From contig NZ_CP117709.1 in the NCBI RefSeq assembly GCF_028622875.1, forward strand, positions 1,054,001 through 1,118,000: DNA of 64,000 nt, in the 5' to 3' direction. The notes below the pieces were generated by a model. That model saw nothing but the letters and a program-made list of their open reading frames with translations, had not been told where the DNA came from and searched no databases. Shown in pieces: positions 4,301-61,690 of the stretch. Position 1 is the first letter of the stretch, and each line of letters begins with the position of its first letter. The position numbers were made by a program, and so were the translations under genes. Source of the stretch: Streptomyces sp. MMBL 11-1. Lineage in GTDB: Bacteria; Actinomycetota; Actinomycetes; Streptomycetales; Streptomycetaceae.

Positions 4301-5116
4301 CTGTTCAACCACCGGCTGTTCGGCCTCGACCGGCTGAACCTGCTCCGGCTGCTGAGCAGTCTCGGCGGGCACAGGCTCGGCGGGCTCAGGCTCGGCGGGC
4401 GCCTGCTCCGCAACGGCCTGCTCCGGCTCCGGTTGCGGCGGCTGCGCGCCCCATGGCGCGCCGGCCTGCGGCGGGATCTCGCCCAGCTGCGGGCCGGGCA
4501 GGGCCGAGGGGTCCTCGGCCGGGACTTCGACGTTCTCGGGGCCGGCCGTCGGCGGGCCGGCGTGGCGTGCGGGGGCAGCGGTCCGGGTGGCCCCGGCGGG
4601 GCCCCGGTCGGCCAGCGAGCGCACGACGCCACCCTGCGTACCGCCGTACGTCGGGGCCTCGGCGGAGGCGGGGCCCCGGTGCAGCGGGCGGCGGGCGGGG
4701 GCCGCGTGCGCGCCTGCCGGTGCGGGCGCGGCCATGCGTACGCCGTTGAGGTCCACGGAGCCGGAATCGCGGCCACCGGACTCATGGGTGCTGTGCGTCG
4801 CGGCGGCGGGGGCCGCCTGCCCCTGCGGCGCGGGGGCCTGTTGGGGCTGCTGGGGCTGCTGGACGCCGTGCTCCGGAGCGGCGGGCTGCGCCACCGCGGT
4901 CTGCGCGGCGGGCGCGCCCTGCGCGGGGGCCGGGGTGGCCTGCGGGTCGCTCCAGGCGCCCTGAGAGGTCGGCATCAGCAGAAGGTCGTCGTCCTCGGGA
5001 GTGTGCTCGGAGGGGTCGAGGAAGGTGTACGCCTCCGGGGCGGGGACGCCCGGCTGCTCCACCATGCCTGCGTTCTCCGGCAGTCCCTCGCCCGGGATCT
5101 GGCCGGTGTCAGTCAT
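1397..5116 (-). CDS. cobT: BluB-CobT fusion: DMB synthase plus nicotinate-nucleotide:DMB phosphoribosyltransferase with long disordered N-terminus
   Basis: A 1239-residue protein with three parts. Residues ~1-660 are low-complexity Pro/Ala/Glu/Val sequence without a fold signature. Residues ~667-880 are a nitroreductase-like flavin domain of the BluB kind (MRERRDIRNGFRG, then HSQPWDFVVIR and GLGVGWVSFF), which makes 5,6-dimethylbenzimidazole from FMN. Residues ~885-1239 are CobT (AIFAGDHGVHAQGVTAWPQE, MGIANTTASAAL, GRGTGI, and the catalytic-Glu tail LRLGEGTGALLALP), which activates that base to alpha-ribazole phosphate. Ordinary CobT is about 350 residues. The ATG at 5116 follows a GAGGGG box. 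The fusion would pass the lower ligand straight from synthesis to activation. The N-terminal part could tether or space the enzymes, but this is inference. Confidence 0.9.
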   Translation of the reverse strand: MTDTGQIPGEGLPENAGMVEQPGVPAPEAYTFLDPSEHTPEDDDLLLMPTSQGAWSDPQATPAPAQGAPAAQTAVAQPAAPEHGVQQPQQPQQAPAPQGQAAPAAATHSTHESGGRDSGSVDLNGVRMAAPAPAGAHAAPARRPLHRGPASAEAPTYGGTQGGVVRSLADRGPAGATRTAAPARHAGPPTAGPENVEVPAEDPSALPGPQLGEIPPQAGAPWGAQPPQPEPEQAVAEQAPAEPEPAEPVPAETAQQPEQVQPVEAEQPVVEQAVAEAVVAEQSEGEAVVEAGEPVQPAEPVAVPAPTAVSVTPAAEPVQPAAGAQPEPVPQAVPAETVVPEPAAVEMPPAGPVVIPEPEAAQPEAQAEAQAEAPAQAPADEVAAPVTPEPVEAQHGAAVAQEPEAPAVPVEAATPGPEAVTPEPQAPAQDTPVVEPVVQPEPVVEPEPVVGPEQERPVEPAPEPVPATPVTESPAAVAAPEAVVPAPEAVAPQAVAAEPVAEPLVPEPVQPEPVAAEPVESAEPVAPVEPVAPVESAEPETEGAEAQEPTAQQLPVTGQDATPAPAAEPAVEPAGATATEAADLAAPDAEDGTGPEVIETPELPEPDQQAPAADQQEPTGAPQPTEASHPAEAPRRDEAAQRPESPADPAEPAETAEQAEPLTPPAPGYDDAEREAVLRVMRERRDIRNGFRGDPIPHEVLLRVLEAAHTAPSVGHSQPWDFVVIRSAETRRSMHELAQSQRDAYAKSLPKGRAKQFKELKIEAILDTPVNIVVTADPTRGGRHTLGRHTQPQMAPYSSALAVENLWLAARAEGLGVGWVSFFDEREMVRALGLPEHLEVVAYLCVGYVDEFPEEPELMQAGWSKRRPLSWVVHEETYGRRALPGAEPHDLLQETISAIRPLDAKALGEAWERQKRMTKPAGALGMLEIISAQLSGLSRMCPPPIPEPAAVAIFAGDHGVHAQGVTAWPQEVTAQMVANFLGGGAVCNAFAAQVGAEVCVVDVGVASDLPATPGLLPRKVRAGTADFTTGPALSREEVLAAIEVGIETARDLVAAGNKALLTGEMGIANTTASAALICVYTGIDASEVTGRGTGINDEMHARKVDVVRRALDLHQPDPADPIGVLAAVGGLEHAAMAGFLLGGASLRTPVILDGVSAGAAALVARAIAPEALAACIAGHRSAEPGHVAALNKLGLRPLVDLDLRLGEGTGALLALPIVQSAARAMHEVATFDSAGVTEK

Positions 5117-5449
5117 GCGTACCCCTCGCCCATCGTCAGTGCTCCTTCGACCCTTCGCCCGGGACGCCGAACCACGGCACGCCGGTGCTCGTCATCAAGA
5201 ACGAGCGGGCTCGCCGCGCGGCACGAAACGCCCGCGGGGCTTCCTATTCTCGCGGCCGTTCGCCTCCGCGACAGGCTGTTCTGCCACGGCTCACTGTGGA
5301 CTGCGCCACGTTGCGCGTCCCCCGGGTGGTGCCGTACCACAGTGCGGACCAAAACAGTCCACTTTTCCGGACATTGACGAACGAAGCGACGAACGGCCGG
5401 GCGCGGTACAACAATCCGCCAGCCTACCTTCCGCACCGGGCCGGGCAGG
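5117..5449. other. Intergenic region between cobL and cobT, no gene seen
   Basis: This 333-base gap lies upstream of cobT and downstream of cobL. It is less GC-rich than its surroundings, so a cobT promoter is plausible here. I looked for the conserved B12-box core of a cobalamin riboswitch on the minus strand and did not find it. The open frames that cross it lack Streptomyces-like third-position bias. Confidence 0.5.
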
Positions 5450-6688
5450 TCAGGGGGCGAGGTCCGAACGGCGGCCGGACAGCAGGAACACGACCGATCT
5501 TTCGCGCTCGGTCCAGGCGGTGGTGTCCAGGTCCACGGACTGGAGCAGTGCGCACTCGACCGTGTAACCGTTGCCGGAGAGCGCCCCGCCGAGGGCCTCG
5601 GCCTCGTCCCGGGTCGAGGCGTGGGTCACGATGCGTTCGGGGCGGCGGTCGGCGACCGCGGTGGCCACCGGGGCTCCCCCGCCGCCGATCCGCACGACGT
5701 CCGGTTCGGGCAGCCGTTCCAGGACGTGCGGGGCCCGGCCGCGGACGACCTGGACGGGGACGCCGAAGGCGCGGGCGGCGGCCTCGGTGCGGGCGCAGGC
5801 GGCCGGATCGTCGTCCACGGCCAGGACGGCCGCGCCGAAGCGGGCCGCCTCGACGGCCAGGGCGCCGCTGCCGGAGCCGATGTCCCACAGCAGGTCGCCG
5901 GTGCGGGGGCCGAGGCGGGCGAGCTGGGCGGCGCGCAGGCCGGGGAACTCGCCCTCGCCGGACTCCTGCATCCGCTCGGCCCCGGCGGCCCGATAGGCCT
6001 CGGCGGGCAGGGCCCAGCCCCGTATCCCCTGGGGGTAGGCGGGCTGGCGGCCGGCGATCCAGGCGCCGGCTGCGGTGGTCTCGGGGCCGCCGCCGATGAC
6101 GATGACGACGTTGGGGTCGCGCCAGGCGTGGTCGGCCGCCTTGTCGGAGGTGAGGACGGTGACGCGCTCGCGGGTGGTGCCGACTTCCTCGCAGATCACG
6201 AAGGTGCGGTGGACACCGTCGAGGAGCAGGGCCAGTTCGGCGGGTCCGGCTCCCGGTGAGGTGAGGACGGCGACCTTGTGATGGGCCCGGCAGACGTTGA
6301 CCGCGCGGCGCAGGGTGCGGGGGTGGGCGACGACGACCTGGGCGTCGTCCCAGGGCATGCCGGCCCGGGCGAAGGCGGTGGCCACGGCGGAGACGGCGGG
6401 GACGACCTCGACCTCCAGGCCGTGTTCGCGGGCGCGCAGGGTGCGGACGACGCCGAAGAAGCCGGGGTCGCCGTCGGCGAGGACCACGGCGCTGCCGCGG
6501 TGGCCGGCGATCCTGCGGGCGGCGAGGTCGACGCTGCCGAGGCGGATGCGTTCGGCGTGCGGGGGCACTTCCGGCAGGGCGAGGTGGTGGGCGGCGCCGG
6601 CGACGAGCGTGGCGGCCGAGAGCGCGGCCGTGGCCGCTCTGGTCAGTGGCGAGCCGTCCCAGCCGATCACCGTGACCCGGTCGGCCAT
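5450..6688 (-). CDS. cobL: Precorrin-6Y C5,15-methyltransferase (decarboxylating), CbiE-CbiT fusion
   Basis: A 412-residue bifunctional corrin-ring enzyme. It methylates C5 and C15 of the precorrin-6 ring and removes the C12 acetate carboxyl group. The N-terminal half is a CbiE-type tetrapyrrole methylase (DRVTVIGWDGSPL and a VLADGDPGFFGV loop). The C-terminal ~170 residues are a CbiT-type class I methyltransferase with the SAM loop LLWDIGSGSGALAVEAARFG. The ATG at 6688 was preferred to one 13 codons upstream because AGGAGA precedes it at good spacing and the CbiE fold starts here. It lies with the other cobalamin genes on the minus strand and probably belongs to the same regulon. Confidence 0.93.
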   Translation of the reverse strand: MADRVTVIGWDGSPLTRAATAALSAATLVAGAAHHLALPEVPPHAERIRLGSVDLAARRIAGHRGSAVVLADGDPGFFGVVRTLRAREHGLEVEVVPAVSAVATAFARAGMPWDDAQVVVAHPRTLRRAVNVCRAHHKVAVLTSPGAGPAELALLLDGVHRTFVICEEVGTTRERVTVLTSDKAADHAWRDPNVVIVIGGGPETTAAGAWIAGRQPAYPQGIRGWALPAEAYRAAGAERMQESGEGEFPGLRAAQLARLGPRTGDLLWDIGSGSGALAVEAARFGAAVLAVDDDPAACARTEAAARAFGVPVQVVRGRAPHVLERLPEPDVVRIGGGGAPVATAVADRRPERIVTHASTRDEAEALGGALSGNGYTVECALLQSVDLDTTAWTERERSVVFLLSGRRSDLAP

Positions 6689-6797
6689 CGTCGTCTGTCT
6701 CCTGGGGTGTCGGGAGGAGCGGGGCATTGCCCGTGCGGTGCCGGGCAGGGGTGAGAGTACCTGGTCCGGACCTCGGTCTTCCGGGTGGCCTCGGGCT

Positions 6798-7445
6798 CTA
6801 CTTCCAGTTGTTGTACGTGCCGTAGTCGCCGGCGTCGGCGAGCTGTTCCGCGACCCCTTCGAGATCCTCGGGGAGGAGGCCCCAGACGATCAGGTCGGTG
6901 CGGATGTCGGTCCAGCCGCCGTCGGTGCCGTTCTCGGTCCGGGTGCGGGCGATGCGGGCGTTGCGCAGGACGCCCTCGCTGATGCAGCCGAGCTTCTGGG
7001 CGACCTGCTGGGAGGCGGTGTTGTCGGCGGGGGTGCGCAGCTCGATGCGTTCGAAGCCCTGGTCGCGGAAGAGCCATTCGGCTATGGCGAGCACGGATTC
7101 GGTGGCGTACCCCTCGCCGCGGGCCCAGGGGGCGGTGATGTAGCGGACCTCGGTGGAGCGGGTACGCCAGTCGGTGTTGAGGAGGCGGACGCTGCCGACG
7201 AGCCGCTGGGTGAGGAACTCGGTGACGGCGAGGGCGATGCCGTGGCCCGCGGTGCGCTCCGCGGGAGCGATTCTGCGGACCCAGCGTTCGGCGTCGACCT
7301 GGGTGTACGGGGTGGGCCCGTCCATCCACGCGGTGACCGCCTCGTCGTTCATCATCTCGATGTGCGCGGGGATGTCGGCCATCTCGAAGGGGCGCATCAC
7401 CAACCTGTCCGTGCTGATGGAGATGGACGGAAAGGTGGTAGTCAT
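6798..7445 (-). CDS. GNAT acetyltransferase, RimJ/RimL-like
   Basis: A 215-residue GCN5-related N-acetyltransferase. The start of the fold is the usual SISTDRLVMRPFEMADIPAH. The acetyl-CoA region reads YITAPWARGEGYATESV and is followed by LFRDQGFERIELRTPADNTA, the pattern of RimJ/RimL-type enzymes acting on protein N-termini or small amines. The substrate cannot be told from sequence. The ATG at 7445 has a GGAG box about ten bases upstream and matches the family start. It is separated from metQ by a strong terminator, so it is probably its own unit. Confidence 0.85.
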   Translation of the reverse strand: MTTTFPSISISTDRLVMRPFEMADIPAHIEMMNDEAVTAWMDGPTPYTQVDAERWVRRIAPAERTAGHGIALAVTEFLTQRLVGSVRLLNTDWRTRSTEVRYITAPWARGEGYATESVLAIAEWLFRDQGFERIELRTPADNTASQQVAQKLGCISEGVLRNARIARTRTENGTDGGWTDIRTDLIVWGLLPEDLEGVAEQLADAGDYGTYNNWK

Positions 7446-7522
7446 GCGCAGCTCCATGCCGAAGACCGGGTAAAAGCACAGCATGCAGCATCGGGTGCGT
7501 GGTGTGCATGGGCGGGGCCGCA

Positions 7523-7568
7523 CGACGGAGCCCCGCGCCTTCCGGGCGGAAGGTGCGGGGCTCCGTCG
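7523..7568 (-). terminator. Strong hairpin terminator downstream of metQ
   Basis: Two 21-base arms (7523-7543 and 7548-7568) pair with a single G-T mismatch around a 4-base loop, starting 19 bases past the metQ stop. There is no U-tract, as is usual for Streptomyces terminators. It closes the metNIQ operon. Confidence 0.8.
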
Positions 7569-7586
7569 GCAAGTGCCGGGCGGGTG

Positions 7587-8453
7587 TCAGGACTTGGCGG
7601 GGGTGCCGAAGGCCGGGACGATCGAGCCCTGGTAGGTGTCCTCGATGAACTTCTTGACCTCGTCGGAGTTGAGGAGTTCCGCGAGCTTCTCGACGCGCGG
7701 GTCCTTCTCGTTGCCGTCCTTGACCGCCAGGAAGTTGGCGTACGGGTTGCCCTCGGCCTTCTCCAGGGCGAGGGAGTCCTTGCCGGGCTTGAGATCGGCC
7801 TCGATGGCGTAGTTGCCGTTGATGACGGCGGCGTCCACGTCGTCCAGGGCGCGGGGCACGGTGGCGGCCTCCAGCTCCTTGAACTCCAGGCCCTTCTTGT
7901 CGGTGATGTCACTCAGCTTGGCGCTGGTGCCCACGCCGTCCTTGAGGGTGATCAGGCCGTTCTCGGCGAGCAGCTGGAGGGCTCGGCCGCCGTTGGTGGT
8001 GTCGTTGGGGACGGCGATGGTCTGGCCGCCCTTGATGTCCTTGAGGTCCTTGACCGTCTTGGAGTAGAGGCCCAGCGGCTCCAGGTGGACGTCGACCACG
8101 GGCACGATGGTGGTCTTCTGCTTCGCGTTGAAGTCGTCCAGGTAGGGCTTGTGCTGGAAGAAGTTGGCGTCGACCTGGCCGTTCTGGGTGGCGGTGTTCG
8201 GCAGGACGTAGTCCGTGAACTCCTTGACCTCCAGGTTGAGGCCCGCCTTCTTCGCCAGGTTCTTCTTGACGAAGTTCAGGATGTCGGCGTGCGGCGTCGG
8301 GGACGCGGCGACGACCAGGGCCTTGGAGGTGTCGGCGTTCGCGCCGGTCTCGCTCTTGGCGGCCGGGTCGGAGTCCGTACCGCAGGCGCTCAGGCCCAGG
8401 GCGAGGGCGGCGGCGGACGCGACGGCAGCGGTGATCTTGATGTTCTTGCGCAC
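7587..8453 (-). CDS. metQ: Methionine ABC transporter substrate-binding lipoprotein
   Basis: A 288-residue NlpA/MetQ-family periplasmic-type binding protein. It captures methionine (often the D form too) outside the membrane for MetI-MetN. A Lys/Arg start, a hydrophobic run and the lipobox LSAC put the lipidated cysteine at about residue 24. Family hallmarks include SPTPHADILNFVK, DANFFQHKPYLDDFN, HLEPLGLYS and AVPNDTTNGGRALQLL. The start is GTG at 8453, set by an AAGAGG box eight bases upstream and by the signal peptide. It is last in the metN-metI-metQ operon, 83 bases after metI. Confidence 0.95.
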   Translation of the reverse strand: MRKNIKITAAVASAAALALGLSACGTDSDPAAKSETGANADTSKALVVAASPTPHADILNFVKKNLAKKAGLNLEVKEFTDYVLPNTATQNGQVDANFFQHKPYLDDFNAKQKTTIVPVVDVHLEPLGLYSKTVKDLKDIKGGQTIAVPNDTTNGGRALQLLAENGLITLKDGVGTSAKLSDITDKKGLEFKELEAATVPRALDDVDAAVINGNYAIEADLKPGKDSLALEKAEGNPYANFLAVKDGNEKDPRVEKLAELLNSDEVKKFIEDTYQGSIVPAFGTPAKS

Positions 8454-8536
8454 GAAGAGTGCCTCTTTCTTGTGGTGGTGCGCCCGGACAAGGAGTTCGG
8501 GCTCGGTGGGACAGAAGGTTCTGGGGGCGGCCGGGC

Positions 8537-9208
8537 TCAGGAGGCGGTGCGGCCGCGGCGGGCCAGCAGCCGGACGGTGAGGTCGCCGATCAGCTGGATC
8601 ACGGTGACGATGACGATCAGCAGCGCGACGGTGATCAGCATGAACTGGTTGTCGAAGCGCTGGAATCCGTAGGTGACGGCCTTGGAGCCGAGCCCTTCGC
8701 CGCCGACGGCGCCGGCCATCGCGGAGTAGCCGATGAGCACGATGAGGGTGGTGGTGACACCCGAGACGAGCGAGGGAAGGGCCTGCGGGAGGAGCACCTT
8801 GCGGACGATCGTGGGGATGGATCCGCCCATCGACTGCACCGCTTCGACGAGCCCGTGGTCGACCTCCCGGATCGCCGTCTCGACGAGCCGGGCGAAGAAC
8901 GGGATGGCTCCGACGGCGAGCGGCACGATCATCGCGGTGGGACCGATGAAGGTGCCGACGACCCAGGTGGTGAAGGGGATGAGGGCGATCAGCAGGATGA
9001 TGAACGGCAGGGAGCGGCCGATGTTCACGATCACGCCGATGACCTTGTTCACCACGGTGTTCCGCAGCAGTCCGCCCTTGTCGGTGAGGACCAGCAGCAC
9101 GCCGAGCGGCAGGCCGCCGGCGACGGTGACGAGTGCGGACCACAGCACCATGTAGAGGGTGTCGACGGTGCCCTGGGCCAGCAGGGGCTGCATTTCGGAC
9201 CAGGTCAC
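8537..9208 (-). CDS. metI: Methionine ABC transporter permease
   Basis: A 223-residue MetI-type inner-membrane permease with about five transmembrane stretches. The coupling-helix motif for the ATPase is seen in EAVQSMGGSIPTIVRKVLLP. The GTG start at 9208 overlaps the metN stop in a GTGA junction, so translation is probably coupled. It works with MetN (ATPase) and MetQ (binding lipoprotein). Confidence 0.95.
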   Translation of the reverse strand: MTWSEMQPLLAQGTVDTLYMVLWSALVTVAGGLPLGVLLVLTDKGGLLRNTVVNKVIGVIVNIGRSLPFIILLIALIPFTTWVVGTFIGPTAMIVPLAVGAIPFFARLVETAIREVDHGLVEAVQSMGGSIPTIVRKVLLPQALPSLVSGVTTTLIVLIGYSAMAGAVGGEGLGSKAVTYGFQRFDNQFMLITVALLIVIVTVIQLIGDLTVRLLARRGRTAS

Positions 9209-10305
9209 TTGACGACCTCCTTGGTGAGCGCGGCGGACGTGAGCCCCGGTACGGCGGTGTCGGCGGTCCCGTCGACCACGGCGGAGGGCTTCGAGCCGGT
9301 CGCGTCCTCGACGACTTCGGCCTTGAGGCCCTGCTCGCGCAGGAAGCCGATGGGCACGACGTTCTCCTCGAAGCGGCCGGGCAGCTCGATGCGCATCCGG
9401 CCGATCTGCTTGCCGCCGACGGTGTCCATCGCGGCGCCGAGGATCGAGATGTCGATGTTGTACGTGCGGGAGAGCTGGGAGATGACCGGCTGGGAGGCCG
9501 ACTCCCCCTGGAAGGTGACGTCGACGACCGTGCGGTCCGGGCCGGACGCGGTTCCGCCGACCGGGAACAGCTCGTGGGCCAGTTCGGAGCCGGGGGTGGC
9601 GAGGAGTTCGCCGACCGTCCCGGACTCGACGATCCGGCCGCGCCGCATGAGCGCCGCGGAGTCGCAGATGGTCTTGACGACGTCCATCTCGTGGGTGATG
9701 AGCAGGACGGTCAGGCCGAGCTGCTGGTTGAGGTCGCGCAGCAGCTGGAGGATGGAACGGGTGGTCTCGGGGTCGAGCGCGGAGGTCGCCTCGTCCGAGA
9801 GCAGCACCTGGGGGTCGCCCGCCAGGGCGCGGGCTATGCCCACACGCTGTTTCTGACCGCCGGAGAGCTGGCCCGGGTAGGACTTCGCCTTCTCGGCGAG
9901 GCCCACCAGGTCGAGGAGGTCCTTGGCCTTGCGGGTGCGTTCCTGGCCCGAGACGCCGAGGATCTCCAGCGGCAGCTCCACGTTGTCCAGGACGGTGCGG
10001 GAGTCCAGCAGGTTGAAGTGCTGGAAGACCATGCCGATGCGGGTGCGCGCTCGGCGCAGCTCGGCGCTCGCCCGCCGGCCTCGGCCGGCGAGGGCGGTGA
10101 GGTCCTGGCCCGCCACCGTCACGGTGCCGGAGGTGGGGCGTTCCAGGAGGTTGACGCAGCGGATCAGGGAGGATTTTCCGGCGCCGCTCTGTCCGATGAC
10201 GCCGTACACCTCGCCTTCGCGGACGTGCAGGTCGACGCCGTCGAGTGCGGTGACCTCACGGTCGCGCGACTGGTAGACCTTCGTGAGGCCCGTCGTGGTG
10301 ATCAC
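9205..10305 (-). CDS. metN: Methionine ABC transporter ATP-binding protein
   Basis: A 366-residue ATPase. It has Walker A GQSGAGKSS, a Q-loop in VFQHFNLL, the signature LSGGQKQRVGIARAL, Walker B VLLSDEATSALDP and the H-loop ITHEMDVV. A C-terminal NIL/ACT-like domain (about residues 265-340, QPVISQLSRTYNIDISILGA) senses methionine and inhibits transport in characterised MetN proteins. GTG at 10305 was chosen because the family starts with ITTTGLTKVYQ. Another in-frame GTG at 10320 lacks a purine-rich box. It is first in the operon and lies behind the leader peptide at 10522-10608. Confidence 0.94.
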   Translation of the reverse strand: MITTTGLTKVYQSRDREVTALDGVDLHVREGEVYGVIGQSGAGKSSLIRCVNLLERPTSGTVTVAGQDLTALAGRGRRASAELRRARTRIGMVFQHFNLLDSRTVLDNVELPLEILGVSGQERTRKAKDLLDLVGLAEKAKSYPGQLSGGQKQRVGIARALAGDPQVLLSDEATSALDPETTRSILQLLRDLNQQLGLTVLLITHEMDVVKTICDSAALMRRGRIVESGTVGELLATPGSELAHELFPVGGTASGPDRTVVDVTFQGESASQPVISQLSRTYNIDISILGAAMDTVGGKQIGRMRIELPGRFEENVVPIGFLREQGLKAEVVEDATGSKPSAVVDGTADTAVPGLTSAALTKEVVK

Positions 10306-43142: not shown

Positions 43143-43162
43143 CCGTCCTACCGGTGGTCCCG

Positions 43163-43399
43163 TCAAGTGGTCCCGTCAAACGGACTGCTCCGTACGGCAG
43201 TCGGTGGTGGCGTTGTGCTGTCGCGGCGGAAGACGCGTGGCCGGAGGAGGTCGAATCCTGCCCGGCCGGGTGTCCGGCGCATGATCCTCTTGGTGAGCCG
43301 CAGTAGCAGCAGGACGGTGGCGGACGAGACGGGTGCGGCCGGTGACCGAGTGAGCAGGGCGGCCACCCGGCCGCACGACTCGACCAGCACATCCGTCAC
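43163..43399 (-). CDS. Possible small protein, unrecognised
   Basis: A 78-codon frame with GTG start, ending 20 bases past the dehydrogenase stop on the other strand. The product begins TDVLVESCGRVAALLTRSPA and is Arg/Pro-rich toward the end. Third-position GC bias is weaker than in the neighbours, and no motif or good ribosome box is seen. It may not be a gene. Confidence 0.25.
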   Translation of the reverse strand: MTDVLVESCGRVAALLTRSPAAPVSSATVLLLLRLTKRIMRRTPGRAGFDLLRPRVFRRDSTTPPPTAVRSSPFDGTT

Positions 43400-43597
43400 G
43401 GTCCGGCTCCGGTTTCCGTGCACCTTCCCGGTCAGCACCCCGCACCCCTGGCAGGCGACGCGACCTCCCGGGTCGGGGCCATGACCCGGATCACCTCACC
43501 TCACCGCCATCCCGTCACCGGATGCCCGACCGGCAGCCCGGTGCGAGCAGGAAAGAGGGGCCCCGGGGTCTTTCGTCGCGGCCGGGCCCCGGGGCGG

Positions 43598-44911
43598 CTA
43601 CGCCTTGCTGCCGGCCTCCCGCTCCCGCTCCGGCTCGGCCTCGACCGGGGTGGGCGGCGCGATCACGTCAGCCAGCTGATTCCTCAGCAGCCAATAGCCG
43701 ATGGCGGCCACCGCGCCGACCACCGCGCACCCGGCCCAGAGGGCATCAGCGCCGAAGCCGTCGATGAGGAAGCCGCCGAGCAGCGGTCCCGCGAAGGTCG
43801 CGCCGGACCACGACAGCGAGTAGACGCCCTGGTAACGACCGCGAGCGGTGGGCGGCGCGAGCGCGGCGGCGAACGCCATGCTGGTGGGGTTGTGCATGAT
43901 CTCGCCGAGGGTCCAGATACACACGGTCACGATGTAGACGGGGACCGCGTTGGCGAGGCCGGTGAGTCCGAAGCCGAAGCCGGTGAGCAGCGACGCCACG
44001 ATCAGTACGGTGATGGGTTTGACCCGCCGCAGCCCCCAGTTCACGGGGATCTGGCAGAGGACGACCACCAGTCCGTTCACACCGATGACCACGCCGTAGT
44101 CCGCGCTGGAGAAGCCCTCCATTCCCATCGTGACGGGGAGGGAGGTGGTGTACTGCATGAGGACCATGGCGAAGAGGAAGGACAGGCCCACGACCGCCAT
44201 GAACTTGGTGTCGCGGAGCACGGTGCCGAGGCCGATGGCGGGGTCTGTGGCCGAGTCGGCCGTCGCGGCGTCGCGCTTGCCCCCGGTCGCGTCGGCCACA
44301 CTCTTCGGCCTGGTCTCGGGGACCTTGAAGAAGATCACGACTGCGCACACCAGCACCGATACCGCATTGCCGAGGAACAGCAGCAGATATCCGTGCTCGG
44401 CGATCAGTCCGGCCGCGGCCGATGCCACGCCGAAGCCGATGTTGACCGCCCAGTAGTTGAGCGAGAACGCGCGGACCCGGTCCTCCTCCGGCACCAGGTC
44501 GGCGATGATGGCCTGGATGCAGGGCCTCGCCGCGTTGGCGGCGACCCCGAGCACGCAGACCAGCACGGCGATGACGGCGGGCTCGCGCACGAAGCCGAGT
44601 ATCGCCATCACCACCGCGGTGGCGAGCTGGGAGATCAGCAGTGTGGGGCGGCGGCCGATCCGGTCCGCCATCACACCTCCCAGCACCGCGGCAACCGCTC
44701 CGCCGGCCCCGTACAAAGCGGCGACCAGACCCGCGAAGCTCGCCGAGAGACCGCGGTCCGCAGTCAGGTAGAGCGCCATGAAGGTGGTGACGAAGCCACC
44801 GAGCCGGTTGATCAGCGTGCTCGTCCACAGCCACCAGAACTGGCTCGGCAGACCGGAAATCGCACCCTTCACGGCTCGTGACACGGATGTCGGGTTGGGC
44901 AGGGCTAACAC
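43598..44911 (-). CDS. MFS transporter, probable exporter of the adjacent ATP-grasp cluster
   Basis: A 437-residue, 12-helix major facilitator protein. Motif A is GGVMADRIGRRPTLL in loop 2-3. There is a central hydrophilic loop (residues ~195-215) and an acidic C-terminus. The GTG at 44911 has a GAGGGGG box four bases before it. The second codon is TTA, the rare leucine codon read by bldA tRNA, so synthesis should depend on development. A TAATAT hexamer on the minus strand near 44975 is a likely -10. Divergent from the PLP/ATP-grasp operon, it is a natural candidate to carry that pathway's product out. Confidence 0.85.
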   Translation of the reverse strand: MLALPNPTSVSRAVKGAISGLPSQFWWLWTSTLINRLGGFVTTFMALYLTADRGLSASFAGLVAALYGAGGAVAAVLGGVMADRIGRRPTLLISQLATAVVMAILGFVREPAVIAVLVCVLGVAANAARPCIQAIIADLVPEEDRVRAFSLNYWAVNIGFGVASAAAGLIAEHGYLLLFLGNAVSVLVCAVVIFFKVPETRPKSVADATGGKRDAATADSATDPAIGLGTVLRDTKFMAVVGLSFLFAMVLMQYTTSLPVTMGMEGFSSADYGVVIGVNGLVVVLCQIPVNWGLRRVKPITVLIVASLLTGFGFGLTGLANAVPVYIVTVCIWTLGEIMHNPTSMAFAAALAPPTARGRYQGVYSLSWSGATFAGPLLGGFLIDGFGADALWAGCAVVGAVAAIGYWLLRNQLADVIAPPTPVEAEPEREREAGSKA

Positions 44912-45516
44912 AGGACCCCCTCGAAAGTGCTGCACAGTCACCGAGACATGTAAGCAGTGAAAACCGTCACCGTATATTACTGACCCCGTCGGCCCCCGAG
45001 ACGGCGAACACGTGAAATAAGCCATCGGACATAACGGCCGTAGTCGTGATCCCCATGGCGGTGCGGGGTAGGACGGATACCCCGGGATGGGACAACCGCC
45101 CTGGACACGCCCACTTGTGACGTGCCGTCAAGGACCCGCCTGCCGCGCCGACGGCGCGCCCACCGTAGCCGTTCCAGGCCTTCGGCCGACGACCCGCCCC
45201 TCGCCGCGGCGTGCACGCGGTGCGCACATCAGACGCTGCGAAAACGAATGCCGAGAAGTCCACGACTTCCCTCTCGCACCGCACAGGTGAGAGATCAACT
45301 CGGCTCGCCGCCTCACGGTACAGACGTATATCCGCCAACGAATCGGAAGATTTGACCTAATTTTCCATGAGGTCGCTCATCTGTACGCCTGAATCAAGCC
45401 GTTCAAGCCCGTCTCAGGCCGAAAGGTGCTGCGATCGAGCGGACCCGAGTGATAGTGTCTCGCCGAGCGGTCGCAAATGTCATAGTAAACGTTTGGCCAT
45501 TCGGGGGTTTTGCTAT

Positions 45517-45690
45517 ATGACTGCACCGAGCGAAATACCTCGGACTGTCAGGATCGACTATGCTGAAAATAGCTGGTACGGGCCTCACATTCCGCTCGGC
45601 AGGCGTGGCTCCGAGAAGCTTCTGCCGACGCCACGACGGTCCACGCTATTCATGGGCACCTCCGTCTCGATGAGGTCCGCGCCCGACTGA
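45517..45690 (+). CDS. Possible 57-residue small ORF in the atypical region
   Basis: ATG 45517 is preceded by GGGGG at nine bases and by AT-rich promoter-like DNA. The peptide starts TAPSEIPRTVRIDYAENSWY and then GPHIPLGRRGSEKLLP. Its third positions are far less GC-biased than real genes here, which argues either against coding or for recent foreign origin. A precursor peptide for the nearby ligases is conceivable but unsupported by any leader/core pattern. Confidence 0.25.
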   Translation: MTAPSEIPRTVRIDYAENSWYGPHIPLGRRGSEKLLPTPRRSTLFMGTSVSMRSAPD

Positions 45691-46320
45691 TCACCACGCC
45701 GTCCCCGGCCGGACCAACGCGCATGAGCGTGAGCCCAGGGCTCCGCCTGCCGGGCCGCGGAAGACGGTGCGGAGAAGCCCGACGTCGTCGACATCGCCAT
45801 CCGCCAAGCCGGGCGGCGATGACGCAGGCACGTCCGCCGCCCTGACGCCATGCCGACGGAAAACGGCCGAGGTATTGACGGGGAAGCACGGAAGGAACTC
45901 GCAGCGCGTCCCGGCATGGGCCGTCTTCGTATTCCATCCGAGCGTCGAGCATCGTTCACTCGCCGTCCGACCAAGTGTCACCCGGCCCACATAGGCCTGT
46001 TCTGATCAACAATTCGGCGGGTAGCGCACCCGGAATTCCTGGGCGGCCGGAGTTCTCGGCCAGCCGGGACGCCATCCCGGTCGTTACGGTTGCTGACGAT
46101 TCTTCATGAATTTTCTGGGTCTTCGGCTGGTTGTGGGCAGCACCCATGACCGTCCGGAGAAGAGGCCGCGCAGGAAGATGAGGGGGTGGGTGCCGTGTTT
46201 GCGCACGGTGGAATGCGGGACCGGATCCGCGCGAAGCGTTGCTCGCCGGTCGGGGACCGTCAGGATCCAGAGACCTTCTGTTGCCCCTTGATCCCCGGAT
46301 CGCCCTCGGCCCGGCCGGCT

Positions 46321-46380
46321 TCAGGCCAGGCGCCTCAGCTCCACCACCAGCGCGGCCAGTTCCTCATGCGAGGGTCGCAC
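46321..46380 (-). mobile_element. Remnant of an IS66-like transposase N-terminus
   Basis: On the minus strand GTG at 46380 opens a frame reading VRPSHEELAALVVELRRLA before a stop. RPSYEELAALVVELR-type sequence is how I recall IS66-family transposases beginning in Streptomyces. Only this first fragment remains. It lies 121 bases upstream of the PLP gene and suggests that mobile DNA helped assemble the locus. Confidence 0.4.
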
Positions 46381-46501
46381 GGCGGCCGGAAGAAGGACGG
46401 AAGGTCAGCTTCCCTGCCCCGCGAGGCCACTTCACACCACAGCGCCACAGCTCACCGGTTATCCACAACAGCCACACTTCTGAGTCATTGGGGGATGACA
46501 A

Positions 46502-47563
46502 TTGATTTACGATTCAATCCTGGAGACCGTGGGCCGCACGCCCGTGGTCAGACTGCGCCGTCTGAGCGCATTCGGCTCGGAAATCATCGTCAAGCTCGAA
46601 TCCTTCAATCCCGGCGGAAGCATCAAGGACCGCGCGGCGATCTCGATGATCAACGGGGCGGAGCTCGACGGCCGGCTGAAGCCCCACGGCACCATCATCG
46701 AGTCGACGTCCGGGAACCTGGGCAAGTCACTTGCGCTGATCGGTGCGACGCGCGGCTACCGGGTCATCCTGGTGATCGACCCCAAGGCGCCCAGGAGCAT
46801 GGTCGACTTCGCCACAGCCCTCGGTGCCCAGATCGAGTTGGTGGACACGCCCGACGAGTCGGGCGGCTACCAGTGGCCGCGTATCGAGCGGGTCCAGCGA
46901 CTGCTGGCCGAGACCCCCGGCGCGTTCTGGCCGGATCAGTACAACAACCCTGACAACGTCAGGGCCCACTTCGAGCTCACCAGCCGTGAACTCCTGGACG
47001 ACGTACCGGTGTTCGACGCTCTGATATCCGCGGTCAGCACCGGCGGCCACATCAGCGGGCTGTCGGCGGCGGTGAAGAAGGAGTTACCCGACGTGGTCAC
47101 CGTCGGCGTGGACGCCGCAGGGTCGGCCGCGTTCGGCTACCCGTTCTCCAAGTATTCGATGCGCGGTCTCGGGCTGGCCTGGAAGCCCGGCAACCTCGAC
47201 CGCTCCATGGTGGACCGGGTCCACCTGGTCGCGGACTACGAGGGCATCGCCACCATGCGCGTCCTGGCCAGGAGCGAGGGCCTCCTGGTCGGTGAGTCCG
47301 CGGGCGCAGCCGTGTTCGCCGCCGTGCACCACGCCTACCGATACCCCGGAAGTCGCATCGTCGTCATGGCTGCCGACGGCGGCGTCAACTACCTCGGTGA
47401 GTCATTCGATTCTGACTGGCTGCGGGCCAAGGGCCTCGCCGAACAGATCGAGACCGCCGGGATCACCAACCCGGAGGGGCTCATCGCGGCCGCCTCCCAC
47501 CCGGCCAACGAGCAGGTGCCGACCGAGCTCGGGCTCAGGAACGTCACGCTCGCCAACGACTAG
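46502..47563 (+). CDS. Cysteine-synthase/SbnA-like PLP enzyme (beta-substituted alanine synthase)
   Basis: A 353-residue fold-type II PLP enzyme. Opening IYDSILETVGRTPVVRLRRL and the PLP lysine in NPGGSIKDRAA (Lys42) mark the cysteine synthase family. The substrate loop is STSGNLG (68-74), not the TSGNTG of true cysteine synthases. SGNLG is the form I associate with SbnA/VioB-type enzymes, which use phosphoserine-like donors and amine nucleophiles. The phosphate loop STGGHISG and the GESAGAA segment (about 263) also deviate. A TTG start follows GGGGA at good spacing. An in-frame TTA codon at 47084-47086 (residue 195) implies bldA dependence. First gene of the four-gene operon. No SbnB-like partner is present. 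Confidence 0.85.
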   Translation: MIYDSILETVGRTPVVRLRRLSAFGSEIIVKLESFNPGGSIKDRAAISMINGAELDGRLKPHGTIIESTSGNLGKSLALIGATRGYRVILVIDPKAPRSMVDFATALGAQIELVDTPDESGGYQWPRIERVQRLLAETPGAFWPDQYNNPDNVRAHFELTSRELLDDVPVFDALISAVSTGGHISGLSAAVKKELPDVVTVGVDAAGSAAFGYPFSKYSMRGLGLAWKPGNLDRSMVDRVHLVADYEGIATMRVLARSEGLLVGESAGAAVFAAVHHAYRYPGSRIVVMAADGGVNYLGESFDSDWLRAKGLAEQIETAGITNPEGLIAAASHPANEQVPTELGLRNVTLAND

Positions 47564-47589
47564 ACAACCAAAGGGTTTCGGGCAAGTAC

Positions 47590-48810
47590 ATGGCAATCGT
47601 TTTTCTTGAGGCGAACTCGACAGGGACCACGTCCGACGCGATCAAGCTGGCGACCGGGCGCGGTTACCGCACCGTCTTCGTCACCATGCAGCGCGGGTTC
47701 TACGAGACGCTCCCGGACAACCCGCTGGACCTGTGCGACACGGTTCTCACCTGTGACACCTACAACGTGGCCGAGATCCTGCGCGTCCTCCGCGACGAGG
47801 ACGTGGAGGCGGTCATCTCGTTCGACGACTACCACCTGGTGACAGCGGCGCTCTGCGCGATGGCACTCGGTCTTCCGCACGCCGATGTGTCCGGGCTGGT
47901 GGCGGCTCGGTACAAGGACGTCGCACGCGAGTTGACGAAGGATCTGCCCGGCGGGATCTGGACCCTGACGGTCCCCGAGGAGGAGCTCGACACCGTCGAT
48001 CTCGACTCGCTCCCTTATCCGGTCATCGTCAAGCCCGTGGACGAGAGCGGCAGCGTCTCGGTGCAACTGTGCCGGACGCCCGCCGACGTCACCTCGGTCA
48101 CCGAGCGCTACCGCAGCCATGTGGTGAACGTCCGGGAGTACCGGCCGGTCCGGGCCGTGCTGTTCGAGGAGTACATCGACGGCGACGAGTACAGCTGCGA
48201 GCTGTACTGGAAGGCCGGCCACGGATGGCATGTCGCCGGCCTCACCAAGAAGTTCTTGGGAGCCCCGCCGAACTTCGTCGAGCGCGGCCACATCTTTCCC
48301 GCGCCGCTTCCCGAGCAGCAGGCGAAGGAGGTCGGCGAACAGGTGGTCGGCTGGGTCGAGGCCACCGGACTGCGGTGCGGCGCGGCCCATGTGGAGCTGC
48401 GGATCAACGACAGCGGGCCGCACCTGATCGAGATCAATCCCCGGCTGCCCGGCGGCCACATCACGCAACTGGTCGCCTGGTGCACGGGGATCGACATGGT
48501 CGCCCACTACCTCGACTTCCACCTGCGCACAACGGAGCCGCAGCCGCCTTCGGCGCCGGAGTACGCCGCGGCCTCCAGCAGGTTCGTCCTGCCGGACGAG
48601 GTCGCGGCCGGCAAGACGCATGAGGACGTCTACGAGTCCTTCACCCGGCTGCCGACCTTCCGGCGCGGCAGGGTGCAGCCCGGTGCGCTGTCGTCCGACC
48701 GGACAGCGCAGACCAATTACGACCGCATCGGATACGTGCTGTTGGTGGGGCCCGACCCGGCCGCGCTCGACGCCGATCTCGACCTGCTCGCGCAGGACCT
48801 GCGCAGCTGA
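47590..48810 (+). CDS. ATP-grasp ligase, L-amino-acid-ligase/carboxylase-like
   Basis: A 406-residue ATP-grasp enzyme of the carbamoyl-phosphate-synthase/BacD-like group, which activates a carboxylate as acyl phosphate and joins it to an amine. ATP lysine segment PYPVIVKPVDESGSVSV (about 143-159), lid strand VLFEEYIDGDEYSCEL (about 190-205), and the metal-binding Glu-Asn in HLIEINPRLPGGHI (about 278-291) are all present. The N-terminal half is a Rossmann-like preATP-grasp domain (LEANSTGTTSDAIKLATGRG). It starts 26 bases after the PLP gene. A dipeptide or amide bond is the likely product; substrates are unknown. Confidence 0.85.
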   Translation: MAIVFLEANSTGTTSDAIKLATGRGYRTVFVTMQRGFYETLPDNPLDLCDTVLTCDTYNVAEILRVLRDEDVEAVISFDDYHLVTAALCAMALGLPHADVSGLVAARYKDVARELTKDLPGGIWTLTVPEEELDTVDLDSLPYPVIVKPVDESGSVSVQLCRTPADVTSVTERYRSHVVNVREYRPVRAVLFEEYIDGDEYSCELYWKAGHGWHVAGLTKKFLGAPPNFVERGHIFPAPLPEQQAKEVGEQVVGWVEATGLRCGAAHVELRINDSGPHLIEINPRLPGGHITQLVAWCTGIDMVAHYLDFHLRTTEPQPPSAPEYAAASSRFVLPDEVAAGKTHEDVYESFTRLPTFRRGRVQPGALSSDRTAQTNYDRIGYVLLVGPDPAALDADLDLLAQDLRS

Positions 48811-48839
48811 ACCCGTACATTCCAAAGGAGAGTTGAGCC

Positions 48840-49859
48840 GTGGGCTACAAAGTTCTGGTGTTGATATCGCACATGCAGCAGTGGCGTCTCGACAACCAGT
48901 CGATCATCCCGAACGGACTGTTCCGGGGCGGTCACGAGGTCCACGTGGCCGATATCGAGACACTGGGCATCAAAGAGGGCACCGTGGTGTGCGACATGTT
49001 CCAGGCCGACCAGGAGTACTTCGACGGCATGCCGTTCCCCCAGGAGCGGCTTGAGCAGGCCAGCTGCGAGGACTTCGATCTGGTCTGGCTGCTCACCAGC
49101 CCGCACCCGAACCTCTTCCTGGAGACCTACCAGCTGCTCTGGGTACTCAACCAGCGGGTCACCTTCGTCAACGACGCGGCCGCGGTGCTGTTCCTGAACA
49201 GCAAGACCTGCCTGCCCGGCGGCGTGCCCCGCGATCACCTGCCGACCACCTACGTCTCGAACAGCTTCACGGAGCTGGACAAGGTGGTGACCGACGATCC
49301 CGAGACCGCGTGGATCATGAAGCCGGGCAACGAGGGCTGCGGCGCCGACATCTATTACGTCAACGCCCGCGAGAAGAACTTCCGCGCCCTGCTCCAGTCG
49401 GCGACCGGCAACGAGGTGTCGCGGTACGAGAACTACGGCCGCCAGAACATCGGCCTGTCCCGCAAGTACATCACGATGCAGGAGTACGTCCCCAACGTCG
49501 TGGAGAACGAGCAGCGCGTCCTGCTCTCCGGTGGCGTGCCGGTCTGCGGATTCCGCCGGTTCCACGGCGACGACGACCACCGGGCCAACGCCACGCTGGG
49601 CAACGGGTTCGCCGACATGGAGCTCACGCCGGAGGAGGACGCGTTCTGCCGCGAGCTGGGTGAGTCCCTGATGCGCCAGGGCATCTACTTCGCCGGCATC
49701 GACCTGGCCTTCCCCTACGTCCTGGAGCTGAACCTGGAGAACCCGGGTGCGACCAAGTGGACGTTCCTCGCGACCGGCGTCGACAAGACCCCGGAGGTCG
49801 TGGAGCACCTCCTGGCGGCTCTGGTGCGCGACGGCCGTCTGAAGGCTCTGTCGGCATGA
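48840..49859 (+). CDS. ATP-grasp ligase, glutathione-synthetase (GshB)-like
   Basis: A 339-residue protein. AWIMKPGNEGCGADIYYV (about 157-174) has the ATP lysine. MQEYVPNVVENEQRVLLSGG (about 213) and DLAFPYVLELNLENPGATKW (about 288-307) match the GshB strand order, with Glu-Asn for magnesium. The N-terminal domain begins YKVLVLISHMQQWRLDNQS. It is unlike the ligase before it and the one after. The start is GTG 48840, with GGAG nine bases upstream. Streptomyces makes mycothiol rather than glutathione, so a role in a specialised pathway is more likely than thiol synthesis. Confidence 0.85.
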   Translation: MGYKVLVLISHMQQWRLDNQSIIPNGLFRGGHEVHVADIETLGIKEGTVVCDMFQADQEYFDGMPFPQERLEQASCEDFDLVWLLTSPHPNLFLETYQLLWVLNQRVTFVNDAAAVLFLNSKTCLPGGVPRDHLPTTYVSNSFTELDKVVTDDPETAWIMKPGNEGCGADIYYVNAREKNFRALLQSATGNEVSRYENYGRQNIGLSRKYITMQEYVPNVVENEQRVLLSGGVPVCGFRRFHGDDDHRANATLGNGFADMELTPEEDAFCRELGESLMRQGIYFAGIDLAFPYVLELNLENPGATKWTFLATGVDKTPEVVEHLLAALVRDGRLKALSA

Positions 49860-51229
49860 CACGCACCGGCGAGCTGTCCACGCTGCTCGCCCCGGACCTG
49901 GTGGACAGCTGGAGCGAGTACCAGGAAACCGTGGGCCCCGAGGCGGCGCGGGAGGACTCGGACGCCTTCGCCGCGGGCATCTACCGCAAGGGGTGGCCGC
50001 ACATCTTCCCACCGCCGCTCTTCTCGTCCGAGTTCGTCGACGAACTCTCCCACGCCGCCCGGACCGTGGTCGGTCTGCTGCGGGCCGTCCCGGAGCGGGT
50101 GTTCGGCGGTGACTTCGCGGCCTGGATGGAGTTCCAGGGGCTCACTCGCGAGGAGTCGGAGCTGCTGACCCGGTCGCTCAACAAGCGCAACCTCCAGATG
50201 GCCAGCCGGTTCGCCCGCCCGGACTTCGTGCTCACGACCGGCGGTCCCAAGGTGGTCGAGGTCAATGTCTCGGCGCCGCTGGGCGGGATGAACACCGTTG
50301 ATCCGTACGTGAAGCAGTTCCGCAGCTCCGGCTACTTCCGGCATCTCCAGGAGGCGGGCTACGACGTCTCCGCCCCCGAGATGCGGAGCATCTGGGGCGA
50401 GGCCTTCCAGTCGCTGGTGCGACCGCGGCAGTCCGACGGCCGGCCCGTGGTGTTCGAGGCGATCGCGGACAGCAACGACATCAACTCGGGCCGCCAGGCC
50501 TTCGAGAAGCTGGTCGGCTCCTTCGGGTTCGCCTACGCCAACGGCCTGGTGCAGGATCTCGACGTCCGGGCCGACGGCGTGTACTACGAGGGCCGGCGCG
50601 TCGACGTCGTGTTCACCATGTACACCTGGCTCGAGACCCGGAAGTTCGTCCCGGCCGAGATCACCATCGGACTGATGGAGGCGGACGCCGCGGGGCTGGT
50701 CGACTTCATCGCACCGCCGACCAGCGCGCTGTTCGACCACAAGGCCAATCTGGAGCTCCTGACCTCGGACTCCTTCGCGGAGTGCTTCACCGGGGCCGAG
50801 CGGGACTTCATCCGGCGGTACGTCCCCAGGACGTTCCGGGTGACCGAGGAAACGGCTCCCGAGGCCCTTGCCGACCAGAGCCGTATGGTGCTCAAGCCGG
50901 GCTCCGACTACGGCGGCCGGGGCATCGTCTTCGGGGACCGGGTGTCCGGCGAGGAGTGGTCCACGGCTATCGACGCCGCGGCGGCCGGTTCGGGCTTCAT
51001 CTGCCAGCAGCGACTGGAAGAGCTGTGGACCGGCCAGGGCTTCAACGGCACCGAGTACCGCGATCACTACGTCTGTCTCGGCCCGCTGGTGTTCGCGGAC
51101 AAGTACGCCGGCACCTTCGTCCGCTGGGCCGACGCGGCGAGCGGCAACGCCGTGATCAACGTGAAGCAGGGGGCGGAGTCGGGCGCGCTGCTGGCCGGCC
51201 ACGCGGCAGCCGTCCGAAGGTCCTCCTGA
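49856..51229 (+). CDS. ATP-grasp ligase, glutathionylspermidine-synthase-like
   Basis: A 457-residue protein, overlapping the gene before by ATGA. FVLTTGGPKVVEVNVSAPLG (about 125-144) has the acidic residues and Asn expected near the metal site. The ATP lysine and glycine loop come late, in SRMVLKPGSDYGGRGIVFGD (about 342-361), followed by GFICQQRLEELW. This order, with the acidic motif ahead of the ATP loop, is that of circularly permuted or glutathionylspermidine-type ATP-grasp enzymes. The third, non-homologous ligase in a row. It closes the operon, ahead of two hairpins. Confidence 0.75.
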   Translation: MTRTGELSTLLAPDLVDSWSEYQETVGPEAAREDSDAFAAGIYRKGWPHIFPPPLFSSEFVDELSHAARTVVGLLRAVPERVFGGDFAAWMEFQGLTREESELLTRSLNKRNLQMASRFARPDFVLTTGGPKVVEVNVSAPLGGMNTVDPYVKQFRSSGYFRHLQEAGYDVSAPEMRSIWGEAFQSLVRPRQSDGRPVVFEAIADSNDINSGRQAFEKLVGSFGFAYANGLVQDLDVRADGVYYEGRRVDVVFTMYTWLETRKFVPAEITIGLMEADAAGLVDFIAPPTSALFDHKANLELLTSDSFAECFTGAERDFIRRYVPRTFRVTEETAPEALADQSRMVLKPGSDYGGRGIVFGDRVSGEEWSTAIDAAAAGSGFICQQRLEELWTGQGFNGTEYRDHYVCLGPLVFADKYAGTFVRWADAASGNAVINVKQGAESGALLAGHAAAVRRSS

Positions 51230-51310
51230 CCTCTCGCTCGACCTGGTCGACGTCCTTCGAGGGCCCGGCGTCCCGATCGTACGCCCGAGCCGTCCGTGCG
51301 TCCGCCGACA

Positions 51311-51343
51311 GGAGCCGGTCCCGGTCACCCCGGGGCCGGCTCC
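51311..51343 (+). terminator. Hairpin terminator of the ATP-grasp operon
   Basis: A 14-bp stem (51311-51324 with 51330-51343, one T-G pair; core GGAGCCGG/CCGGCTCC) begins 81 bases after the last ligase stop. Confidence 0.8.
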
Positions 51344-51346
51344 TCG

Positions 51347-51375
51347 GGCCGCGTACAGGACGTTCGTACGCGGCC
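51347..51375 (-). terminator. Hairpin terminator of the NUDIX gene
   Basis: A perfect 10-bp stem (GGCCGCGTAC with GTACGCGGCC, 9-base loop) directly past the NUDIX stop on the minus strand, back to back with the terminator of the convergent ligase operon. Confidence 0.75.
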
Positions 51376-51378
51376 GGG

Positions 51379-51909
51379 TCAGCCCAGTCTCAGGTGGTGC
51401 AGCATCAGCAGGGCCGCCGCCATGTTCGCGGCGGGCACCTCGCCCCGGGCGATCATGTCCGGGACCACCTTGAGCGGTATCCACTCGCGGCGCGAGGACT
51501 CGAAGGCGTCCCGCGGGGGCCCGGTCCAGTGCGCCTCGTCGGACCAGTACAGGTGGTGGCGGGCGTCGGTGAGGCCGTTCGACGGTTCCACGGTGAGCAG
51601 CGGGCGCAGCTCGCCGGGGCGCCAGCCGGTCTCCTCCTCCATCTCACGGGCCGCCGCCACCGCGATGTCCTCGCCGTCCTCGACGACGCCCGCGGCCAGT
51701 TCCCACCCCCAGCTGTCGGTGATGAACCGGTGCCGCCAGAGCAGCAGCACCTCGTTCGCCTCGTTGACGACGGTGGCGGCCGCGACGGGCCGCAGCCGGA
51801 TGACGAAGTGGTCGAGATGACTGCCGTCGGGGAGCTGGACGTCTGCCAGATTCACCCGGAACCACGGGTTCTGATACACATTCTGTTCGCTTAAGTTCGT
51901 CCACTGCAC
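51379..51909 (-). CDS. NUDIX hydrolase
   Basis: A 176-residue pyrophosphohydrolase with a complete Nudix box, GVVEDGEDIAVAAAREMEEE followed by TGW. ADP-ribose pyrophosphatase-like features surround it (LLWRHRFITDSWGWELAAG). The usual substrate is an NDP-X compound. GTG 51909 (VQWTNLSEQNVY) was chosen for the family start and the AAAGGCGG box. An ATG at 51930 lies inside an upstream palindrome and is less likely. It stands downstream of the NsdA-like regulator and converges with the ATP-grasp operon. Confidence 0.9.
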   Translation of the reverse strand: MQWTNLSEQNVYQNPWFRVNLADVQLPDGSHLDHFVIRLRPVAAATVVNEANEVLLLWRHRFITDSWGWELAAGVVEDGEDIAVAAAREMEEETGWRPGELRPLLTVEPSNGLTDARHHLYWSDEAHWTGPPRDAFESSRREWIPLKVVPDMIARGEVPAANMAAALLMLHHLRLG

Positions 51910-61368: not shown

Positions 61369-61690
61369 GGATCCTCCTCGGTAGCACCACGCGGCCGCCT
61401 GGCGGACAGCCGCGTAACGTCTTATAACGTCAAGACCAACCGAGCCGGAAGCGCAAAAATGCCCCGGACGGGACACAGGCGAGGCTCCAGGAACTACCGG
61501 AGCACCGCCGCGTTCAACCGCGGGGCGCATCGGACGGCTCCATCGTCCGTACGGAACGATGGGGACCGTCTGACCGGTGACCCGCCGTCCGGTGAGGACG
61601 GTCAGGTGGGAGATCGGAGCCTCCACTTGTGGGCCGGGCACATAGATGTCCGGCCGGTCGTTACACAAGGTTAGCAGCCCGGCCCCGGGT
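61369..61690 (-). promoter_or_regulatory. Structured leader and promoter of infC-rpmI-rplT
   Basis: About 300 untranslated bases precede infC. A -10 TAACCT (61673-61668) with TTAGCG 18 bases further out is a plausible promoter, giving a 5' leader of about 290 bases. At 61533-61570 GACGG...CCGTC enclose CCATCGT/ACGATGG and a CCGTACGG core, a long hairpin. A leader this long and folded fits control by L20 or IF-3. I do not recognise a catalogued RNA family. Confidence 0.5.

Follow-up and report, generated by a model that had tools for sequence, protein, structure and literature searches.

An island of about 8.2 kb (43155..51390) in the 64,000-nucleotide stretch of Streptomyces sp. MMBL 11-1 DNA analysed here (the window) encodes an SbnA-like PLP enzyme, three unlike ATP-grasp ligases (AG1, AG2 and AG3) and an MFS exporter, together with the remains of an oxygenase gene. 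With somewhat better than even confidence, we interpret this set as a horizontally acquired, NRPS-independent peptide pathway that operates through a cascade of ligases. The window copy appears to be a reduced version of a cassette that is found, in fuller forms, in a small number of other actinomycete genomes.

The island lies in an 8.5 Mb, high-GC genome, between a gene that reads from its sequence as 3-hydroxyacyl-CoA-dehydrogenase-like and a NUDIX gene. The SbnA-like gene (46502..47563, + strand), AG1 (47590..48810, +), AG2 (48840..49859, +) and AG3 (49856..51229, +) form one co-directional block (46502-51229) with intergenic gaps of 26, 29 and -4 bp, the last being a 4 bp overlap of AG2 and AG3. 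The MFS gene (43598..44911; PF07690, 8.8e-62) lies on the minus strand; its reading frame is open to 45025, and the start near 44911 was judged from the homologs in the related loci L041 and L002. A first-pass annotation had described four packed plus-strand genes, encoding an SbnA-like PLP enzyme and ATP-grasp proteins of three unlike subfamilies, with a divergent MFS gene beside them, and the Pfam assignments and gap lengths bear out this arrangement in full. A search with the sigma-70 consensus alone, for which 0.5 matches are expected by chance, found no promoter-like site. Elsewhere in the window, the Streptomyces RNA Scr1601 (RF02830, 188.3 bits; 61454-61662, minus strand) is the sole gathering-level Rfam match.

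The island borders are sharp, with blastn identity to the relative L061 ending at 43154 and restarting at 51391. Six relatives (L061-L066) were fetched from the 12 with a strong NsdA match, and all six carry both flanks (the left-flank gene and NUDIX-NsdA) with none of the cassette genes between them; in five, the matched flank ends are 73 to about 760 bp apart. At 67.1% GC, the island lies below the remainder of the window (72.6%). The four plus-strand genes are 94.3% identical at the DNA level to locus L001 (46479-51233) and 90.9% identical to L002 (46479-51219), while the MFS gene is 87% identical to that of L002 in inverted orientation. The set was thus probably gained as one island. L061 itself holds 5.8 kb of other sequence (3739-9474) exactly at the island site. 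The site may be a preferred point of insertion.

The cassette is rare. AG3 was found in 7 of 392 genus genomes (E up to 1e-30), and AG2 in 12 of 394 family genomes (1e-40) and 1 of 396 phylum genomes (1e-70, the own genome), with the own genome counted in each case. We mapped 17 loci, six of which we call type A and nine type B; 15 loci, including the window, hold the set together. Type A comprises the window, L001 (sp. H27-H1), L002 (Streptacidiphilus anmyonensis), L041, L003 (S. tailanensis) and L024 (sp. CB02923), all six of which carry the PLP gene, AG1, AG2 and AG3. In L003, the PLP gene is placed after AG3 and is merely 54% identical, and L024 holds a six-gene set with an intact oxygenase. 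An MFS homolog is present in five of the six and in all nine type B loci; none was seen in L001, whose contig is cut about 2 kb before the PLP gene.

The type B loci (L025-L027, L043-L048) share one gene order, in which a PLP gene, an extra ATP-grasp gene and an MFS gene are followed by AG1 and AG2 homologs, with an AG3 homolog in seven of the nine; in the remaining two, none was detected even at E 10. The ligase number is accordingly four in seven loci and three in two (L047, L048). Their SbnA-like protein is N-terminally divergent. L048 is assigned to a 0.56-Mb S. globosus plasmid. In the family-wide search, AG2 matched 11 genomes besides the own genome; the eight at 49% identity or above all have PLP-enzyme, AG1 and MFS homologs, and six also have AG3. 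Three genomes have weaker AG2 matches (40-41%), and neither of the two fetched holds PLP-enzyme, AG1, MFS or AG3 homologs. The weaker single matches L028, L049 and L050 have no partner genes. Beyond these, Micromonospora has three homologs (P0009, P0024, P0097) on contig records of equal size, and the AG2 and AG3 homologs of Ideonella bear the locus numbers 28425 and 28435.

That six type A loci share the set, and nine type B loci a homologous PLP, MFS and ATP-grasp set, shows it to be a genuine unit. Divergence levels correlate among the five proteins (r 0.95-0.99 for all pairs, 0.67-0.99 within type A and 0.83-0.97 within type B), as expected under joint inheritance, although shared phylogeny alone gives the same result. 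That the ligases are unrelated housekeeping enzymes, neighbours by chance, is scarcely credible: AG2 resembles glutathione synthetase and AG3 has the GspS fold, both of which belong to thiol metabolism elsewhere, but the cassette is missing from the site in the six relatives fetched, is rare, and is held together in 15 loci. The proposal of one dedicated, operon-like unit rather than a housekeeping trio is supported by this co-occurrence and by the probable gain as a single island.

Upstream of the PLP gene, the window retains a remnant PhyH-family Fe(II)/2-oxoglutarate oxygenase pseudogene (45517..46103, +). Five collinear tblastn pieces align with the intact L041 protein, the best at 45.4 bits compared with a maximum of 23.9 for 200 shuffles, and DNA identity is 74% over 275 columns and 72% over 299 columns. 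The gene is intact in L003 and L024 (PF05721) and in L041 (67.7% identical to L003), contains stops and frame breaks in L001, and survives in L002 and the window as pieces only, so that type A is evenly divided between intact (3/6) and decayed (3/6) copies. Among solved structures, those nearest to the L003 protein are annotated ‘Phytanoyl-CoA dioxygenase’ (7dzz, 7e01, 7dt0), followed by ‘Leucine hydroxylase’ (5nch). The oxygenase gene was a member of the ancestral set and is dead in the window. Its decay in half of the type A loci, alongside open PLP and ligase genes, is most simply read as marking a dispensable tailoring step.

In three type A loci, the cassette is followed by an NRPS gene. 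The distance from AG3 to its start is 97, 96 and 92 bp in L001, L002 and L041, and it encodes proteins of 2980, 3013 and 2978 residues, respectively; those of L002 and L041 are 86.5% and 90.2% identical to that of L001, in which Pfam identifies three modules with three A, three T, two C and one TE domains. Beyond the NRPS, all three loci carry HPPD-family, FMN-dehydrogenase, A-T-TE and P450 genes (domains assigned by Pfam in the L069 copies). The first-pass statement that no NRPS or adenylation domain is present stands for the window, where the NRPSs of the relatives find no match at E 1 and the five island proteins contain neither AMP-binding nor other NRPS domains, but it does not hold for these three relatives. 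In the own genome, no ortholog of the relatives' NRPS is apparent among 93 matches, the best long one being 52% identical and the highest 65% over 274 residues. As an NRPS accompanies three of the six type A loci and the own genome has no ortholog, its absence from the window may reflect either loss or an earlier state.

Because the NRPS is attached in three close relatives, the cassette there may act before or after an NRPS. This gives rise to a rather unlikely alternative, namely that the cassette is a sub-cluster supplying a nonribosomal peptide with an unusual building block or a tail, and that the window holds a decaying orphan stripped of NRPS and oxygenase. The near-constant NRPS position and shared downstream genes in L001, L002 and L041 favour it, as do the missing ortholog, the oxygenase pseudogene and a possible relaxation of AG3. 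However, no NRPS match was found in the 20 kb fetched around the six-gene set of L024, on the 9.7-kb contig of L003, or, for a multi-module enzyme, in any type B locus (20 kb each). Six of the nine type B loci (L025, L044-L048) do carry, beside the PLP gene, a divergent stand-alone adenylation-like ORF of about 590 residues, 30-32% identical to the L001 NRPS; adenylating enzymes may therefore take part there.

A decaying orphan is further opposed by the state of the coding sequences, as all four plus-strand genes of the window are open. Pairwise dN/dS between the window and L001 (NG86, without GC-bias correction) is 0.14 for SbnA, 0.18 for AG1, 0.19 for AG2 and 0.46 for AG3. Window-only codon changes (nonsynonymous:synonymous) number 9:16, 4:13, 6:6 and 13:6 in the same order, and 30:27 in the MFS gene; the AG1 ratio in particular argues against decay. 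Pooled over the four genes, the window has 32:41 compared with 17:45 for L001 (Fisher p = 0.051; AG3 alone p = 0.10, the other three p = 0.27). By these counts, the window copy is mainly under constraint, with a hint of relaxation that lies mostly in AG3.

Turning to the individual enzymes, the PLP protein is of the beta-replacement type (PF00291, 4.9e-63), with K42 in a SIKDR motif. Its top NCBIfam model is SbnA (TIGR03945) at 282 bits, below the equivalog cut-off of 349.95. Profile matches are to CBS (4ofx, 5.9e-72) and SbnA (5d84, 2.3e-70), and a six-sequence profile ranks CBS (245.5 bits) above SbnA 5d84 (240.3 bits) and the best cysteine synthase (218.7 bits). The stretches ESTSGNLG, VIDPK/VVDPK, GGY..RI..VQ and NQY/DQY..N..N...H are common to this enzyme and SbnA. 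An SbnA-like role is likely from these sequence features, and family membership would predict a beta-substituted alanine as the product. SbnB (TIGR03944) gave no match at a cassette in the eight genomes searched; the best match in the own genome reaches 316.6 of the required 326.9 bits at C1:6956453, about 5.9 Mb from the cassette, and in G321 and G445 weak matches (97-100 bits) share the contig with the cassette at a distance of some 25-30 kb. The own genome also contains a second small set on one strand (L074 3231-8761, within C1:565001-580000), which comprises an SbnA-like PLP gene (39% identical to that of the window), an L-amino-acid-ligase-type ATP-grasp gene (30% to AG1) and an MFS gene.

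An SbnA-like enzyme raises the question of an aminopolycarboxylate metallophore, in which ACEGA or diaminopropionate units would be joined by the ligases and the chelator exported by the MFS protein. In its favour, staphyloferrin B contains units of this kind made by SbnA-family enzymes (PMC3179956), and an exporter is adjacent. We nevertheless consider this very unlikely: iron-box and zinc-box consensus sequences have 0 matches in the window with up to 3 mismatches, an uptake system is absent among the island ORFs, SbnB is missing at the cassette in the genomes searched, and the ligases would use up the carboxylates.

ATP-grasp ligases form an acyl phosphate and then pass it to an amine. AG1 appears to be of the L-amino acid ligase type (ATP-grasp_4, 4.9e-25; 88.5 bits, cut-off 27), matching PDB entry 3vot (BL00235) at 3.2e-16 and the N-terminal part of PRK02186 at 9.6e-72; the C-terminal LAL_C2 domain scores 21.5 bits, below its cut-off of 29.4. 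As a DdaF equivalog it was rejected (25.7 bits, cut-off 840). AG2 is of the bacterial GshB type (PF02955, 1.1e-21), with a GSH-S_ATP domain at 77.6 bits (cut-off 23) and a profile match to 1gsa at 3.2e-23. Aligned to 1gsa, its K122, K161, R226, D288, E296 and N298 are kept in the 12 loci compared and correspond to ATP- and Mg-binding residues of GshB. AG2 was likewise rejected as a glutathione synthase equivalog, at 104.1 of 272 bits. AG3 has, over its whole chain, the circularly permuted ATP-grasp fold of eukaryotic-type GS, GspS, YgiC and Cp1B, and its alignment to GspS is limited to the synthetase part. Conserved ATP-grasp residues were found in both AG2 and AG3.

The AG2 and AG3 genes are adjacent or overlapping in all six type A and in seven of the nine type B loci. 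GshB adds a residue at the C-terminus of a peptide, and GspS caps the product of GshB with a polyamine. Together with the adjacency of the pair, and the close locus numbers of its homologs in Ideonella, this chemistry makes tandem C-terminal extension the most economical reading. Separately, AG2 homologs at 52-53% identity occur in Dickeya dadantii and D. poaceiphila (P0044, P0046). The own genome also holds a cluster (L072 18984 to L073 9823; C1 ~7.724-7.735 Mb) with two distant AG3 relatives, an MFS gene, an acetaldehyde-dehydrogenase/aldolase pair, and aminotransferase-like and ornithine-cyclodeaminase-like genes, several of which have orthologs next to the cassette and its NRPS in L067 and L069.

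For the ligase cascade, we propose the following scheme, in which substrates, step order and product are all inferred. In the SbnA-like enzyme, an amine would take the place of the leaving group on O-phosphoserine or O-acetylserine, either being an activated serine, to give the beta-substituted alanine. With L-glutamate as the amine, this would be ACEGA, the SbnA product, and the absence of SbnB from the cluster suggests that it would be kept as such or processed in trans. AG1 would convert an amino-acid carboxylate to an acyl phosphate and join the PLP product to an amino acid, forming a first dipeptide; AG2 would activate the dipeptide C-terminus and add a residue, and AG3, acting as GspS, YgiC or Cp1B do, would add a final amine or amino acid. 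The MFS protein would export the product. In complete versions of the cassette, the PhyH oxygenase may hydroxylate a residue, and some versions may couple the cassette to an NRPS. Several observations weigh against the scheme: the NRPS behind AG3 in three relatives, the adenylation-like ORFs of type B, the dead oxygenase and the hint of AG3 relaxation in the window copy, a PLP enzyme that falls short of the SbnA cut-off and whose profile scores a CBS slightly higher, and the missing promoter-like site. The earlier interpretation thus holds as regards a dedicated unit with three ligase subfamilies, and is amended for a dead oxygenase, an NRPS in three relatives and a reduced window copy.

That the set could not be matched to a known pathway is borne out, as the sources searched (MIBiG excluded) gave no characterised cluster collinear with it, and literature and database searches found no paper or family describing this gene set. 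The closest kind, judging from excerpts of PMC12568646, is the NRPS-independent dapdiamide/E-64 type of pathway; in dapdiamide biosynthesis (DdaA-I, Pantoea), these describe NRPS-independent amide bonds, the ATP-grasp ligase DdaF and the Fe/2OG enzyme DdaC. Membership of the dapdiamide family fails on the DdaF score (25.7 vs 840), on SbnB at the cassette and on an adenylating DdaG in the island. The dapdiamide pathway also has an SbnA-type diaminopropionate enzyme and an MFS exporter, to which the window adds two ATP-grasp ligases of other subfamilies. E-64 biosynthesis is unlike the window set in using trans-epoxysuccinate and one ATP-grasp ligase with an adenylating enzyme, and its fungal ligase Cp1B shares 15% identity with AG3 in a structural alignment. 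As in the GshB plus GspS route, a GshB-type ligase is followed by a GspS-fold ligase, here from overlapping genes; unlike that route, an SbnA-like enzyme and AG1 occupy the place of GshA, and AG2 scores below the glutathione synthase cut-off. Phosphonoalamide-type pathways of Streptomyces reportedly use ATP-grasp ligases to extend a small amino acid to a tripeptide (PMC11867202) and differ in their phosphonate chemistry.

More broadly, we tentatively suggest, with confidence a little short of even, that these loci represent an undescribed NRPS-free peptide family in which a tandem GshB-type and GspS-fold pair extends an L-amino-acid-ligase peptide containing an SbnA-derived amino acid. The family would occur in three-ligase-plus-oxygenase and four-ligase forms in Streptomyces, Streptacidiphilus and Micromonospora, with the ligase pair also in Ideonella, and would serve as an NRPS-plugged module in some lineages. 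With intact-oxygenase (L003, L024, L041), NRPS-linked (L001, L002, L041) and reduced (window) versions at hand, what the oxygenase and the NRPS contribute can be tested directly. ATP-grasp ligases are of use as catalysts that form amide bonds on their own. The conservation of three to four unlike ligases beside a PLP enzyme that makes an amino acid points to a class of compounds that may escape genome mining focused on NRPS and PKS genes.
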